DNA of 64,000 nt from Boletus sp. NGJ (lineage: Eukaryota; Basidiomycota; Agaricomycetes; Boletales; Boletaceae): NCBI GenBank assembly GCA_019096195.1, contig JAGTXK010000139.1:186001-250000 (forward strand), read 5' to 3'. Both the position numbers and the translations under genes were made by a program. The notes beneath the pieces are model-generated. The model saw nothing but the letters and a program-made list of their open reading frames with translations. It did not search any database and was not told the origin of the DNA. Below, piece by piece: positions 3,144 through 11,600 of this stretch (position 1 is the stretch's first letter; every line of letters begins with the position of its first letter).

Positions 3144-4774
3144 ATCATAGCTGGCCATGGGGGGATCATAATCGCCTCGGAAGCGTTACATTGCCGCGAG
3201 TTGCCAGATTTCCATCATACGGTGGGAGCGTTGGTCATGTGTCTGGGTGGACTTGCGGTGGGGATAATAAAATAGTAAGGGCTGGGCATGGGGCATGCAT
3301 ACGGCACAAACCCCGTGTTCGGGTCCAACAATTGTGTAAAGAACCATTATTACTGCCAGTGGGGGTCGTGGTGCTCGGCTGGTTCACCCGATTTATACCA
3401 GCACTAGATTCAGAAGCACATGTGAGGATGGAAATACCAGCAATAATTTCCGACAGCGGCAATAACGAGGCATTGCGATGCAGCTACTCAGCAGCATACA
3501 CGGCAATCGCCAACACATCCGCGGTGAGTCTTCACGATTCCGTCCGATGATTGGTGATATAGTAAGAAATGCGTATCTCGGTCGTTGCTAGCCCAGGACG
3601 AAGGTCAGCTTCAGAGTGCCAAATGGAGAACCGTGGATCAGTAACTTACGTAGCTCTTGTCTCAAGTGTGGCTCAGACTGCGCGTATGCTAAGAACACGG
3701 TGAACCGCCAGAACTTCCGATTGGCTGTGGGCTTTAAATGCGGCGGTATGAGCGGCCAGCTAAACTCGGAGATCTGGACAAGAGATTTAATAAACCTTGC
3801 CTCCAGAATTGATTCTGCAACCAACCTAGCAAGCTATTCCTCTACTACTAGTTGCCATGGGGAGCCCTTATAGTCACCTCCAGGTTCATATGCACGATCT
3901 CTCGGTTACGCTCGCTGATTTCGAGGTGATTTTGCCGTGTTACAAGCGCAACATCTTATAAAACACCGTACCCGGGCCGTCCCTTTGAATACATGAACGG
4001 CTACATTTTCGGGTCTGTAGAATGATGGGAATGCACGTGGAGTTCAGAAACGTTGCATTATACGAACTGTTTACACAACCATCACCTCTAGTGATGTTCC
4101 GTGTCAGTGGGAGCCCAAGCTGGTCGGCACCACTACCTCGCCACGCCACGAGGGCCTTGCCCCTGCTTTCTTGAGGGGTCGAGTGGTCAGTGGCAACTAG
4201 ATCTTGGACCGAATCTTGAGTCGAGACTTGCAACCAGAAAGTATACTCGTTGTCATTGTGCCATGTGGCGTCTTGGCAGGCGGCCCCAGCTCTTGTGACT
4301 TATCATCATAGAAAGATATGGAACGTTGCCAGTAGACCCTGGTTGGATTGCCAGTAGTGAGCGCTGCCACTGCTTTGTACTATTCGCCGTTCACCCAGAT
4401 GAAGTGGGTTTCCACCAGCAAACGTTGAGGGACGAGAGGATGCGGGGTGGGTGTGATCCCTGAAGGCCTGATGCATTGTTGAGGATTAGTTTCTCCAATG
4501 CCAAGGCGAGTAAACGCAACCACGATGTTCCTTGCAGATATCTTACCGAGCATTTTCCTCCGTTTGGTCAGAGGAGGGACGTGGCCAGCTTCCTGGCAGT
4601 AGTGACATCGAGCGCGTTGCGATATTACATGTATGGACTGTTGCTAGTTGCTACCGAACTGGAATATATGCACAGCTGTGATAGGTTTAAATAATTGTCC
4701 CCTTGATCCACTGCGCCCAAGTCCATTTCCCCTCTCCCCACTCCTCCAATCTCCCAATTATAATTCTCAGCGCA
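3144..4774. other. Intergenic spacer between the glucanase and UAP1, no gene recognised
   Basis: This 1.6 kb is the longest gene-free stretch in the window. Reading frames here are open only briefly and encode nothing family-like, and I see no tRNA, repeat or transposon. It must hold the divergent promoters of the glucanase and UAP1. A TTTAAATAA stretch at 4686-4694 lies 81 bp before the UAP1 ATG and may be its core promoter. Confidence 0.5.
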
Positions 4775-6319
4775 ATGGCCGTTGAAAATATCCGCGATAG
4801 ATACCAGGCTGCCGGCCAGGACCATCTCTTCACCCTCTGGTCAAAGCTTACGGACTCAGAGCGCAATGCCCTCACCCGCCAGCTGGAGAGCATCGACGTC
4901 GAGCGGGTAAACCGAGTATACAAAAAGGCCACTTCCTCCGAAAGCAATGCTACCGATCCCCATCACGTCGTCGACTCCATCGAGCCCCTCCCCGCTGGGG
5001 CGTGCGAGTCCGCGTCCGCTAACCCTGCCAAAGCAAAGGAATGGAGGCAAATTGGTCTCCAGGCCGTTGCGGATGGCCAAGTTGGCGTCCTTTTGATGGC
5101 TGGTGGTCAGGGCACGAGGCTCGGCAGTTCTGCTCCAAAAGGCTGTTACGACATCGGCCTCCCCTCACACAAATCCCTCTTTCAGTACCAGGCTGAGCGC
5201 ATCGCTCGCCTTCAGACCGTCGCTGGGGCCCAATTTGGAAAGCCCAAAGGTTCCGTCTTGGTCCCCTGGTATGTGATGACCAGCGGCCCGACTCGTCGCG
5301 AAACGGAATCCTTCTTCGCAAGCAACAACCACTTTGGCCTCGATCCAAAGAACGTAATCGTTTTTGAACAAGGTATGTACAGATCTTGGTCGTATAGATC
5401 TCAACAATTTACCGATTTCGCCTGCTTTCCAGGTACGCTGCCCTGCCTCACCATGGAGGGTAAATTCATGCTCGAAACCCCCTCTCGCGTCGCTGTTGCT
5501 CCCGACGGCAATGGTGGTCTCTACGCGGCGACTCGCGCTCCCTTGTCCCCATCCGACAAGTCGCGTACGGTCCTTTCTGACCTAGCCGATCGCGGCATCC
5601 AGTACGTTCACGCCTACTGCGTCGACAACTGTCTCGTCAAGGTTGCCGATCCTGTCTTCCTCGGCTATTGCATAGCGAGACAGGCCGATTGCGCTGCCAA
5701 GGTGGTTCCAAAGACATCACCGACGGAGTCAGTCGGCGTCGTTGCTCGCCGGGGAGACAAGTTTAGCGTCGTAGAGTACTCAGAAATCACGAAAGAGCAA
5801 GCTGAGCTCCGGAATCCAAAGACCGGGGAACTCATGTTCAACGCTGGCAACATTGCCAATCACTTTTACACCACCGCTTTCCTTCAATCCGTTGAATCTT
5901 TCGAGAGCGAGCTTGCTTATCACATCGCACGCAAGAAGATCCCGACTATAGACTTGCAAACCGGAGAAGTCGTCAAACCTAGCAAGCCAAATGGCATGAA
6001 GCTCGAGTTGTTTGTATTCGACGTGTTTCCGTTCACCAAGAATTTCGCCGTTCTCGAAGTCGCTCGGAAGGAGGAATTCAGTCCCCTGAAGAATGCGCCA
6101 GGGACTGGGTCAGACGATCCAGAGACCAGTCGTCGCGACCTTTTGGAGCAGCACCGACGATTCCTGGAAGACGCTGGTGCTCGTTTGAAGGAAGGTGTAG
6201 AGATTGAGCTTTCGCCATTTGTCACCTACGCAGGAGAAGGTTTGGAGTCTGTTGAGGGCAAAACCTTCACCAGGTCCGGTTACATCGTGAACCTCGAGGA
6301 ACTGGACGCTTTGTTGTAA
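4775..6319 (+). CDS. UAP1: UDP-N-acetylglucosamine pyrophosphorylase
   Basis: Makes UDP-GlcNAc from GlcNAc-1-phosphate and UTP in the cytosol, the last step in supplying precursor for chitin, N-glycans and GPI anchors. The start is the ATG of MAVENIRDRY; an upstream extension in frame has no family character. The nucleotide-binding signature LMAGGQGTRLGSSAPKG, the segment GLYAATRAPL and the late GMKLELFVFDVFPF block are all present. An intron at 5373-5432 (gtatgt...ccag) interrupts EQG|TLPCLTMEGK. It is 60 nt and has no in-frame stop, so the frame stays open even if it is retained. The spliced protein is about 494 residues, normal for fungal and animal UAP. It converges on the taxilin-like gene. 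Confidence 0.93.
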   Translation: MAVENIRDRYQAAGQDHLFTLWSKLTDSERNALTRQLESIDVERVNRVYKKATSSESNATDPHHVVDSIEPLPAGACESASANPAKAKEWRQIGLQAVADGQVGVLLMAGGQGTRLGSSAPKGCYDIGLPSHKSLFQYQAERIARLQTVAGAQFGKPKGSVLVPWYVMTSGPTRRETESFFASNNHFGLDPKNVIVFEQGMYRSWSYRSQQFTDFACFPGTLPCLTMEGKFMLETPSRVAVAPDGNGGLYAATRAPLSPSDKSRTVLSDLADRGIQYVHAYCVDNCLVKVADPVFLGYCIARQADCAAKVVPKTSPTESVGVVARRGDKFSVVEYSEITKEQAELRNPKTGELMFNAGNIANHFYTTAFLQSVESFESELAYHIARKKIPTIDLQTGEVVKPSKPNGMKLELFVFDVFPFTKNFAVLEVARKEEFSPLKNAPGTGSDDPETSRRDLLEQHRRFLEDAGARLKEGVEIELSPFVTYAGEGLESVEGKTFTRSGYIVNLEELDALL

Positions 6320-6517: not shown

Positions 6518-8511
6518 TCAGCTGCCTACACCACTACTGTCTGACGCCTTACCTCGCTTCTCGAGCTCTTCTCGAAGTGACGCAAACAGGCGCTGCGTGC
6601 GCTCCGCATTCGGCTGATCGTCCATTAACACAAGCACTAATCCGGGCAGCGAAGCCATGCTCACCTCCTTACAGCATGTGATGAGCCTGTCAATGAGTAA
6701 CGTTTGGTTATTCCGTGCATCCTCAAGCTCCTTCCGAAGACGTCGAGCCTGGGTCTGTTAGATCAAAGGAACAAACCATGGCAAAACATAGTAGCCAACC
6801 TCTTCATCGGTCCTGTCAGCTCTGCTTTTCTCACTATCCGCAAGTTGCTTTTGCTCTGCGGCTCGCGCGCGAGAAAGTAGTACTTCGAGTTCTTTCGATC
6901 GAACTACACACTCGAAATGTTGTTCTCGAAGCTTGTATTGGCGAAGGACTTCTTTCAGGCGTTCCCGCACGCTGTCCAATTTTTGTCAGGCAATCATGAT
7001 GGTGATGTACAATGACGTACACGGTGTCGAAAATTTCCCCGAGCGAGCGTTTAGCTCTACGCGCATGTTAAGAAAACAACAATCACAGAAGAGGTCATTT
7101 CATAACATACTCAACAGGGTCGTCTGTCCAGTTCTTCTTGAGATCCTGGCGTCGGTGTTCAGGTAGCTCATCCTAAAAAGCGACATAAAACATCATGCTC
7201 TGTACTTTGCGTGTTAACTTACCCAAGTATCTATACCAGAATCCTCGGTAAGGTCCATAAGTTCTACAGCAAGAACCTCGTCGCCGTCCTCCAACCCTTG
7301 TTCCTCTGGTGTATGGTTTGCATCCAGCGTCCGTCCATTATGAGAAAATATAAACTGCATGGATGATGTGCTGGTGGAATTCCAGGAGTGTGTGCTTGTA
7401 ACTTCCGATTTCGCAGGCCCATTGAAATGGGCCCCAGTACTTGTGGCTGCTTTGCTATCACCCTTTTTTGCGGCCGTCCCTTCCATTCTATCTGTCCAGG
7501 CATTGAAAAGTCTTGAAAGCTTTGTTTTGCGTGAAATTTTGAAAAAAAGCTCTGCGCGATAACGACAAACGACCTTGACCACTATGTCCGGCATTTCGCG
7601 GTATTTCATGTCTTGCATCTTTGCCTTGTCCACTCGCTTAGCCATGTCATTTTTCATTTGTACGATCTACGGAATGTCAAGCAAGCAGACAAGTTGGAGA
7701 TGGTACGTACCTCTTCCTGCGCTTCTTCTACACACTGTGCTAGTCGTTTGCTGTCTTCCTAGGCGATTGTTAGCTATACGGAAACAGTCCCAGCAGTTGA
7801 TGCGTACCCGTAGTCGTTTGTTATCCTGCATAGGTTTTTAGCGATTTCTTAAAAGGCACTGTAAAGGGTACCTTTTGCAGTTCTCGGGCCAGATTCTCCA
7901 TTTTAGCTTTCGTCTGGTTTGCCTTTGTTAGCTGACCTTTGGCTTTGAGTATTGGAGTGAGAGCGATGTAAGGGTAGCAGGAAAGTATAGGACGAACCCG
8001 CATCCTTGTCTTTGACAAGCTTTTGCTTCTCCTTTGCATGATCCCGTTCGAGCCTCTTGAGTTCAGCAAACTGTATCGGGGGTATACGTGAAGGCACCGT
8101 GCGTTCATCACGAAAGACATACTAATTCAATGTATTTGGCGTGGATGGCGTTCTCTCCCATACCTCTGACGGACTTGACGGCCTCCTCTGCTACAGGAAG
8201 ATGAGGAGAAGGAATGGGAGGGGAGGGGGAATGTGCAGACCGAATCGTCGTTCCTCCTCCTCTTCGAGAACCTCTTCCTCCTCGAGGGCTGCGATGCGAT
8301 TTTTGAGACTTTCATACATGGCAGCAGGATCTACGGGGGCATCGTTCTTTTTCTTTGCTTTCTGAGTGCCATTCACTGTGGAGGGATGGAGGGGGGGTCG
8401 GGCTGTGGAGGAGGACTGAGCGGGGGGATTTGGGGGTGCGGGAGGAGCGGGGCCAGATGGAGGGGGCTTGGGCGTACGGGGAGGGGGGGAATGAGTGTTT
8501 GCGCCATTCAT
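6518..8511 (-). CDS. Taxilin-like coiled-coil protein with an embedded SUMO-like domain
   Basis: Taxilins are long coiled-coil proteins that bind syntaxins in vesicle traffic. After a Pro-rich start (residues 1-60) the joined protein of about 500 residues has the taxilin pattern YIELFAELKRLERDHAKEKQ, LARELQKDNKRLREDSKRLA and, after 200 intervening residues, VRERLKEVLRQYKLREQHFE. Between them, about residues 209-320, lies a SUMO-like fold: ELFFKISRKTKLSRLFNAW, then a 40-residue Ser/Thr-rich loop, then FIFSHNGRTLDANHTPEEQ and LEDGDEVLAVELMDL. There is no diglycine end. One exon carries both the first taxilin helix and the SUMO-like domain; a 36 nt mini-exon (7021-7056) joins it to the second half, all in phase. 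The usual C-terminal taxilin block is missing. The 5' end is well supported by ATG at 8511, 177 bp from BRCA2. Confidence 0.72.
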
Positions 8512-8688
8512 GGGAGAAGCTGTCGGAGGAGTGCGGTTGAGAAATACTTACGCTGAGTCGGTGAATGTTTTACAGACGTAACAAAACCGGCGAATGACCC
8601 GACGCGGTAACGCTCCATCTCCTCCATCTCTTCCACTACACGTGACCCATCCGCGTCGCGTTCTCATTCGTCTTCCTTCTCAACACCC

Positions 8689-11600
8689 ATGTCTATCGTC
8701 CAACCTCCCACTTCAGACTCCCGCTCGCCCTCCAGGAAGCGAATGCGTCTCTCCTCCCCCACCTTCGACGATCAAGTCGGAGAGCCGAGCCAAGACGATC
8801 TCGCCGCCTTTGATTCCTTAGACGCTCAGCTATCCCAATCCTTTCCCGATCCCAGCCACCTCAGGCAATCCTCATGCTCAGCTCATAGCGTGACCCATGA
8901 ATTGCCTGTGGTGGATGACGAGAACCCGTTTTGTTCACGTACACCACAAACAGAGCGCATACACGCACCATTCACGAATGCCTCCGCGATCGACAGCACG
9001 ATTGACTATTCCCGGCTTGCAAACGAGCCCTCAGACGAAGAACTACTCGACGAGGCACCTCCAGAGGTCGACTATGCCGCATGGTTCAACTCGAATCCGT
9101 CCAATTCTTTCATTGGATTCAGCACCGCTGCGACAGCAGTGACCGGCTTCCAGAGACCGTCTATCAGTGGTATAACTACGAAAACGCCCTTCGCCCCATC
9201 AGCCGCAGCACTCCGGGACGCTGAAGAGAAAATGAGGAAGTGGCAGGAAGATGTCCACCTTCCCGACCAAGTTCCAACGGACAAGGCGCCCGATTCTCCC
9301 CACTCCACCCAGCTAGTGTCTCCTCCACGGGCAACATTCTCCTCTGCAAGAAATGTATCCTTTATGCATGCACCTGAAACACCCACTCCTGCTTCCTTTG
9401 CAAAGCCTACGCTCACCGAATCACACAGCTCATTCCGGAGTTTGGGCGGCAAACGGCAAACCAAACCTTTCAAGTCTCCTTTGATCACTACAACGCCTTC
9501 CATGCTGTCGCATCGACAAGTATCTACCCCAAGCATCAGTTCACCTCTGCGCGGTTATCCCTCTGCTACTGCCCTTTCTCGGATCACTACGCCTGTATTA
9601 CCGCTACGCCCATCCTCGGTCGCAAACCACATCATGACTCAACAACCGTTGGGTTTTACTCCTCGACACGGGAGTATCACGACGAGACCAAAATTCGTAA
9701 CGCCGTTCAAAGCTGCCGTGAAATTTGTAACTCCAGGAGCATTCGCAGTTGAGAAGCTTCCACCAACTCCCACTAATCCTAGGACAATCGTGAGCCGCAT
9801 GTATCCACCTTCAGCGCCGTCGCCCCGACCATGCAAGCGGAACAGTGACGAGAGGATTTTCGATCTCAGTGAGCACAAGTTGTAGATTCCTTATTCCCCT
9901 CTTTGGATTTCAACTTTATATGTCAGCCCCTCCTCCCGGCAGACGAACACTCGCCGCTTCTGGCTTGCGGCCACAAGCCTACAGTGCCAAACAACTTGAG
10001 GATATGGGAATGTCTGTTTTTTTTTTTTTGGTTATCCCTCCAACCGTTCGGTGCATCCTGATAGCCTGAACCAGAAATTTCAAGGAACTCAGTCAAGTGA
10101 ATCCCCAGACAGCCCCTTTCTACGCTTTCACCACCTATTCGCGCTCTCTTCCAACTTCACCCGATTCGTCCTCGTCTCTTTCCTTGGACCGTTCAGCCAT
10201 GCTGGAAGAACTACACGCAAAAGGCTGCACGCTTGTTGAGCAAACGTGGGTTGACAATCACTGGCCACTGGTCCTCTGGAAATTGGCTGGTATGGTCGCT
10301 CTCGATCCTATGAGCGAGAACGACCCTTTCAGGAAACGTTGGTGTTGGCCGGAAGTTGTTCGTCAGTTGATGTACAGGTAGGCAGACTGATCCGAACGAC
10401 TCGAACTTTGCAGTTCCAACATACCGTCAGATACGAACGGGACTTGAACAGTTCTTCCCGTCCACCATTACGGTTGATAACAACCAGGGATGCATCGGCT
10501 GAATCGCCGCTGGTGCTCTGTATCTCGAACATAACTTGGCCTGCCAGTAGCTCCGAAGGGGATATTGCACCGGTTCAAACTTATCCTGAGCTCGAAATAA
10601 CCGATGGTTGGTATAGGCTACGTGCGCGCGTCGATGCCCCACTAGCGCGAGGTGTAAGAAAGGGAAAAATAAAAATAGGTCGGAAAATTGCTGTAGCGGG
10701 TGCAAAGGTTAGTTCAGCCATCTTTAATGATACGCTCACTCCATTCAGCCCTGTAGCTCTCGGCGGAGCGAAAGGAAGGTTCAGAAATTCTGGAAGCCTA
10801 CAGCTCCAATGTTCTCTTGTTGACCGGGAATTCAACCCATATGGCGCCGTGGCATGCCAAGCTTGGTTTTCAACGTGGACCATTCGTTGCAACACTAAAT
10901 AGCTTGACAGCGGATGGCGGCAATGTTGCTGTTATGATGCTCACAGTGATAAAGGTGTGACCATGTGCGGTTCCAGGTGTCGAATTCTGACAGTGGGGTA
11001 GGCATACCCTGTTGCGTACATAGAATTCGTCGAGGACACCAATGGCCGGAAACGAAGAGAAGGACCACATGACGCAAAAGAGGAGTCGAGGCTGAACATG
11101 CAATGGAAGGTGTGGCAAGTAGAATTTCCATCAACTTGCTTACTTACTCCCCACAGACGAAGCGTAACTCGCATGCATCAAGGTTGTGGTCTGAATACGA
11201 AAAACGCAGGTATAAGCTGCTCGACTGTGCAGAACGCCTTGAGCAACGTGCAGGTTCGAAATTCAGACCCAGGGACGATGGTGAAGCAATACATTGTCAC
11301 ATGAGGGGGATAGACATTAATCGTCAAACAGATGGTCCACCCGACAAGATTTATAATATATACGACACCTTGCAGGAAGACACCGAGGCAGCCAAAAGCA
11401 TCATATCGTCCATCGGTCATGAAGATGCTGGTTGGCTGGCCCGACATATCCGAGAGAGGACCGTCCAGGAACGGGACGAAGCTTCGAGGGAAATTGAACA
11501 AGAACTCGAGGTATGAGATCGCAGTTGTCGGAACTCTGGGATGCTGATACAGTGTCAGTCAACCTGTCCACAACGCGATGTAAAGGCTTTCTGTGTTATG

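Follow-up and report, generated by a model that had tools for sequence, protein, structure and literature searches.

The RENi genome-stability proteins (Rad60, Esc2 and NIP45) are the best-known carriers of fixed SUMO-like domains (SLDs). As described in PMC549199, the SLDs of these proteins are C-terminal, lie behind a polar N-terminus and are usually paired, with a single one in plants. Binding of Ubc9 by such fixed SLDs has been reported in PMC2946365 and PMC7891725; the D430R substitution in Esc2 abolishes Ubc9 binding, and the equivalent residue of Rad60 is E380, according to PMC7891725. Examples of the taxilin family (PF09728) include the animal taxilins and the trypanosome protein PFR-AF1 (PMC7272336). 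Animal taxilins are described as syntaxin-binding and have been linked to NAC (PMC4650556), and a plant alpha-taxilin-like protein is mentioned in ribosome cross-linking data (PMC12330729). Among the literature matches listed, which comprised open-licence papers, no report of a SUMO-like domain in a taxilin was found.

The window, that is, the whole 64,000-nt stretch of DNA analysed here, comes from a genome of 32.8 Mb in 141 contigs. On its minus strand, the gene model, Pfam and the codon-use frames delimited a whole coding gene for a SUMO-containing taxilin homologue (6518–8511). The model comprised 12 exons with 478 codons and a stop, running from an ATG at 8511 to a stop at 6520–6518, in agreement with the limits given by the first-pass annotation. 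The 11 introns measured 44–61 nt, all of them began with GT and ended with AG, and a loose branch-site-like motif, which may be a chance match, occurred one or more times in each. The chosen frame had the best codon-use score of the six in 11 of the 12 exons, although exon 5 (18 nt) won by only 0.02, and the last exon, exon 12, lost by 0.02. Exons 1–6 (7711–8511, minus strand) encode a proline-rich N-terminus followed by the first taxilin stretch, whose PF09728 match starts at residue 104. Exon 7 (7223–7666, minus strand; 444 nt, phase 0-0) encodes a linker (residues 182–207) and the SUMO-like domain (residues 208 to about 323), identified with PF11976; this SUMO exon had been annotated at 7214–7672, and the model places its limits at 7666–7223. 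It is followed on the same strand by exon 8 (7111–7172), which encodes the linker DELPEHRRQDLKKNWTDDPVE, and by mini-exon 9 (7021–7056; 36 nt, phase 2-2), which joins in phase as previously proposed. Exons 10–12 (6518–6971, minus strand) encode the second taxilin stretch and a divergent C-terminus, without a methionine. Intron 11 (6614–6664; 51 nt) had the weakest splice scores of the gene (3.8), and its retention would keep the frame open, adding 17 codons before the normal stop; it may therefore be optional.

Upstream, in head-to-head orientation as already recognized, lies a BRCA2 homologue (mapped over 8689–10902, plus strand), with an N-terminal ORF, a helical piece and an OB1 domain. The BRCA-2_OB1 match (10255–10902, plus strand) was strong (5.4e-25), the BRCA-2_helical match (1.7e-4) was under its cut-off, and no Pfam match at E ≤ 0.001 was found for the N-terminal ORF (8611–9885). 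The BRCA2 homologue starts at 8689, the first ATG of its ORF, 177 nt (8512–8688) away from the start codon of the taxilin-like gene (8511), and on account of this spacing the two genes may have a common promoter region. On the other side, a UDPGP-family pyrophosphorylase (4775–6319, plus strand) is arranged tail-to-tail with the taxilin-like gene, according to a PF01704 match (3.4e-40) on the ORF at 4691–6316; we take it to be probably UAP1.

The 478-residue protein matched both the Taxilin profile PF09728 (1.4e-18, 67.6 bits, cut-off 30.3) and the Rad60-SLD profile PF11976 (6.7e-8, 32.7 bits, cut-off 23.8), each in two stretches, and the domain order on this one protein was taxilin, SUMO-type domain, taxilin. 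The first-pass annotation had proposed exactly such a fusion and had named these two profiles for checking it; with both scores above their cut-offs and the splice phases in agreement, the proposal was borne out. The best taxilin stretch covered residues 104–195 on profile positions 21–117, and the second half, scored alone, matched positions of about 136–212 with 34.5 bits. The first stretch alone scored 41.2 bits for residues 65–181 and 38.9 bits for residues 1–181. Profile positions 213–302 (of 302) had no match in the protein, the covered positions being 21–117 and 136–212 only. Because only part of the 302-position profile was matched, the predicted protein is a taxilin homologue and not a full taxilin, and the earlier name "taxilin" is justified by the score but only partly by the extent of the match. 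A search of the genome recovered a single taxilin locus: nine of ten matches were this gene's own exons, and the tenth had an E-value of 0.8.

The last methionine of the modelled protein is residue 318, which is encoded by the SUMO exon, and when the open frames were followed upstream from exons 8, 9, and 10, no methionine preceded a stop. As predicted from these frames, the second taxilin stretch can therefore be made only as a continuation of the SUMO exon, barring translation from a non-AUG codon. The splice phases agree across all 11 introns. Retention of a single intron ended the frame early in every case except that of intron 11 (10 of 11); with intron 8 retained, the in-frame stop falls at 7097–7095, and not at 7087–7089 as had been annotated. 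On a rough matrix derived from the introns of this gene, intron 6 has the second-best sites (13.4, after 13.6 for intron 5); intron 6 joins in phase, and the frame ends when it is retained. Dropping exons 7 and 8 together produces a stop at codon 183. The taxilin stretches and the SUMO-like domain are, in this prediction, one continuous gene model.

The first-pass annotation had argued for continuity in a different way, reading the head of exon 7 (EEIVQMKNDMAKRV) as the end of the first taxilin half, so that the fusion would not rest on a guessed splice. When residues 182–207 were added to the first half, the taxilin score rose from 41.2 to 41.7 bits, a gain of only 0.5 bit. Omission of exon 7 fused the two taxilin stretches into one match (profile 21–212, 72.5 bits); this construct, like all spacer constructs, was made without residues 1–64, whose removal by itself lifts the score of the first half (38.9 bits with them, 41.2 bits without), and such scores are not comparable bit-for-bit with the 67.6 bits of the whole protein. 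Two separate stretches were obtained when both linkers were kept and the SUMO core alone was removed (64.9 bits) and when no spacer was present (65.6 bits), and the IVQ spacer with the mini-exon removed gave 66.7 bits. The 21-residue IVQ spacer, which corresponds to the head of exon 7, gave 75.1 bits, 3.6–4.8 bits better than four shuffles (70.3–71.5 bits). When the exon 8 linker (DELPEH...) served as the spacer, the score was 72.5 bits, compared with 67.2, 69.2, and 70.2 bits for three of four shuffles of this linker, and three scrambled spacers gave 70.4, 75.2, and 85.6 bits, these being hand-made sequences of 22–23 residues (against 19 in the other set of constructs) and not exact shuffles. 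Because scrambled spacers of similar length also give a joined match, the joined match without exon 7 shows, at the level of profile scores, that the spacer length fits, not that its sequence does. The reading of the exon 7 head as taxilin was not upheld, since other spacers of 21–23 residues fit comparably or better. The argument based on it is weak, and the absence of methionines and the splice phases provide the stronger case.

The SUMO-like domain scored 36.2 bits against PF11976 when residues 182–350 were searched alone, whereas in the unspliced six-frame search of the genome the locus reached 21.0 bits, below the cut-off and tenth of 15 matches. In a phmmer search of the PDB, the best chain was SUMO2 (8oi3_C, 1.9e-7), and most of the best 60 chains carried the name SUMO or Smt3, either by itself or in a fusion. 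With the insertion described below removed, the domain and the genome's own SUMO were identical at 26 of 66 positions (39%), with a score of 105 that none of 300 shuffles reached; with the insertion kept, the score was 76 (0 of 300 shuffles). The genome's Esc2-like protein gave a score of 50 for its divergent SLD1 (0 of 300) and a chance-level score of 28 for its SLD2 (31 of 300), and ubiquitin scored 24 (114 of 300); the exons of the SUMO and Esc2-like reference sequences were joined by eye. These alignments place the domain closest to SUMO itself, with some weaker similarity to the Esc2-like SLD1. The earlier comparison with Rad60, NIP45 and Esc2 thus holds for a fixed SUMO-like domain, but not for the nearest relative.

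No C-terminal diglycine was found, as had been claimed: the domain ends with LAVELMDLTED and reads on into exon 8. The Ser/Thr-rich insertion that had been put at 40 residues is present, and comprises about 37 residues (244–280; 7370–7480, minus strand), 13 of which are Ser or Thr. It separates the part that matches the first half of SUMO from the part that matches the second half, and the alignments with SUMO chains are split there. The best in-frame candidate for an intron hidden in the insertion (7402–7355) combined a weak donor with the lack of a branch motif and was rejected, although such an intron may yet be present. Single-sequence AlphaFold, run with no relatives aligned, produced poor models (mean pLDDT 53.1 and 57.5), and fold searches with these weak models returned SUMO chains among weak matches, with unrelated folds ranked above them. 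No relatives were found among bacterial, archaeal, and viral contigs, a search that is uninformative on fungal conservation.

The 15 PF11976 matches in the genome were sorted by eye from their translations, with C73 (E 0.5) left out. Matches on C81, C102, and C46 corresponded to ubiquitin genes, whereas C59 and C71 looked like other ubiquitin-like proteins, C63 like SUMO, and C13 like a RENi-like gene. The SUMO gene (C63:98000–99800, minus strand; PF11976 82.3 bits), with its exons joined by eye, seemingly has introns inside the domain, and its product seems to end with ...VEQVGG-WAP, that is, with a three-residue tail past the diglycine. A separate RENi- or Esc2-like gene also seems to be present (C13:20800–22800, minus strand), apparently with two SUMO-like domains in pieces joined by eye. 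Since a PDB search with its SLD2 returned nothing at E ≤ 1, its RENi label rests on its layout and a PF11976 score of 27.7 bits. The polyubiquitin gene (C81:891066–892053) seems to hold introns, and one of its repeats reads DEGGMPPDQ where the others read DKEGIPPDQ.

What the domain might do was assessed from the residues at its putative contact surfaces. The groove that receives SUMO-interacting motifs (SIMs) is presumably formed by the second strand and the first helix, the 13-residue segment compared here, and 10 of 13 residues were identical between the domain (FFKISRKTKLSRL) and the genome's own SUMO (FFKIKRNTKLSKL); K35 of the groove (SUMO2 numbering) is, on our assumed correspondence, replaced by Ser. 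Because the groove is nearly unchanged, SIM docking is the favoured function. The coiled coil would hold the domain as a permanent SUMO surface that cannot be conjugated, and the domain would most likely dock partners with SIMs onto the taxilin complex, and, by analogy with animal taxilins and the plant protein, it would act at syntaxins or nascent chains. As a counterpoint, the insertion of about 37 residues could disturb the fold. We give roughly even odds to the full proposal, namely that the only detected taxilin homologue of this genome carries a fixed, non-conjugatable SUMO-type SIM-docking module in one symmetric exon. The terminal LMDLTED resembles a SIM, but this reading was rejected because the motif lies where the last strand is expected; PMC2946365 assigns the similar SBM3 of Rad60 to the core and does not regard it as a SIM.

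With the same gene, the domain could instead recruit Ubc9 in the manner of SLD2 of Rad60, Esc2, and NIP45, steering sumoylation to the proteins held by taxilin. Such a role would be in line with the Ubc9 binding of known fixed SLDs, with the acidic LEDGDE loop kept in the domain, and with the match to the Esc2-like SLD1, weaker though it is than that to SUMO. However, the Asp in the FLYDG motif of the own SUMO, which we take to be Smt3 D68 and to occupy the place of Rad60 E380 and Esc2 D430, aligns with Asn in FIFSHNG, next to a two-residue insertion. The residue essential for Esc2–Ubc9 binding thus appears, on this assumed mapping, to be Asn, and the Esc2-like SLD2, the counterpart of the Ubc9-binding SLD in yeasts, matches the domain at the chance level only. 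Ubc9 recruitment of the Rad60/Esc2 type is disfavoured because the acidic contact residue appears to have been replaced, and we consider it unlikely.

The structure of exon 7 bears on both its use and its origin. The SUMO exon might be included in only part of the transcripts, resulting in a plain taxilin-like protein in addition to the SUMO-bearing one. Its length of 444 nt and its 0-0 phases would allow this, as skipping leaves an open protein of 330 residues with one continuous taxilin match, but the introns flanking exon 7 outscore most of the other introns (13.4 and 10.2), and exon skipping is uncommon in fungi. Exons 5, 6, 9, and 11 are likewise multiples of three, and the symmetry of exon 7 alone is thus not strong evidence. 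We regard partial inclusion as improbable, and we similarly attach little credence to the more specific idea that splicing exon 7 in or out would switch between a plain coiled-coil adaptor and a permanent SUMO surface that brings SIM-containing factors, without sumoylation, to nascent chains or membranes. As to origin, a phase-0 intron may have received the domain in the form of an exon, which would give both the symmetric exon 7 and the joined taxilin match without it. Had a SUMO exon been shuffled in directly, a processed copy or intron loss would presumably have been needed, since the domain of the own SUMO has introns (by eye) and exon 7 has none.

The domain could also be a decaying passenger that arrived by chance and is tolerated, without function, in a flexible linker. 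Its 39% identity to the own SUMO and its low-complexity insertion would be expected of such a remnant, but the groove residues are retained and the frame is intact over 148 codons, and we think a functionless passenger rather unlikely. A small SUMO-like gene nested in the taxilin gene, or two genes, with the joined protein not made, is very improbable. In its favour, exon 7 is symmetric and encodes several methionines (from 185 and 189 onwards), and a stop follows closely after the domain if intron 7 or 8 is retained, but the second taxilin stretch lacks a methionine of its own, the loss of exons 7 and 8 together leads to the stop at codon 183, and the sites of intron 6 are the gene's second best.

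If the SIM-docking proposal is correct, the locus would provide a constitutive SUMO surface in a coiled-coil adaptor whose place of work, by animal analogy, would be syntaxins or nascent chains. It would also exemplify the conversion of a modifier into a domain, with exon insertion as a possible route, and would make it easy to test whether docking of the SUMO type extends to syntaxin or nascent-chain factors in fungi. Compared with the taxilin family, the protein has two stretches above the cut-off, in order, that become one match once the SUMO exon is removed; it differs in the SUMO-like domain between them, in the unmatched profile positions 213–302, and in its proline-rich N-terminus. Compared with SUMO and Smt3, the domain shares 26 of 66 residues with the own SUMO and has SUMO2 as its best PDB match, but it is embedded in a larger protein, lacks the diglycine, contains the Ser/Thr-rich insert of about 37 residues, and has Asn for the Asp of FLYDG. 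Like the RENi proteins, it represents a non-conjugatable SUMO-like domain fixed in a multidomain protein, with measurable similarity to the SLD1 of the genome's own RENi-like protein; unlike the C-terminal and usually paired SLDs of that family, it is a single internal domain placed between two taxilin stretches.
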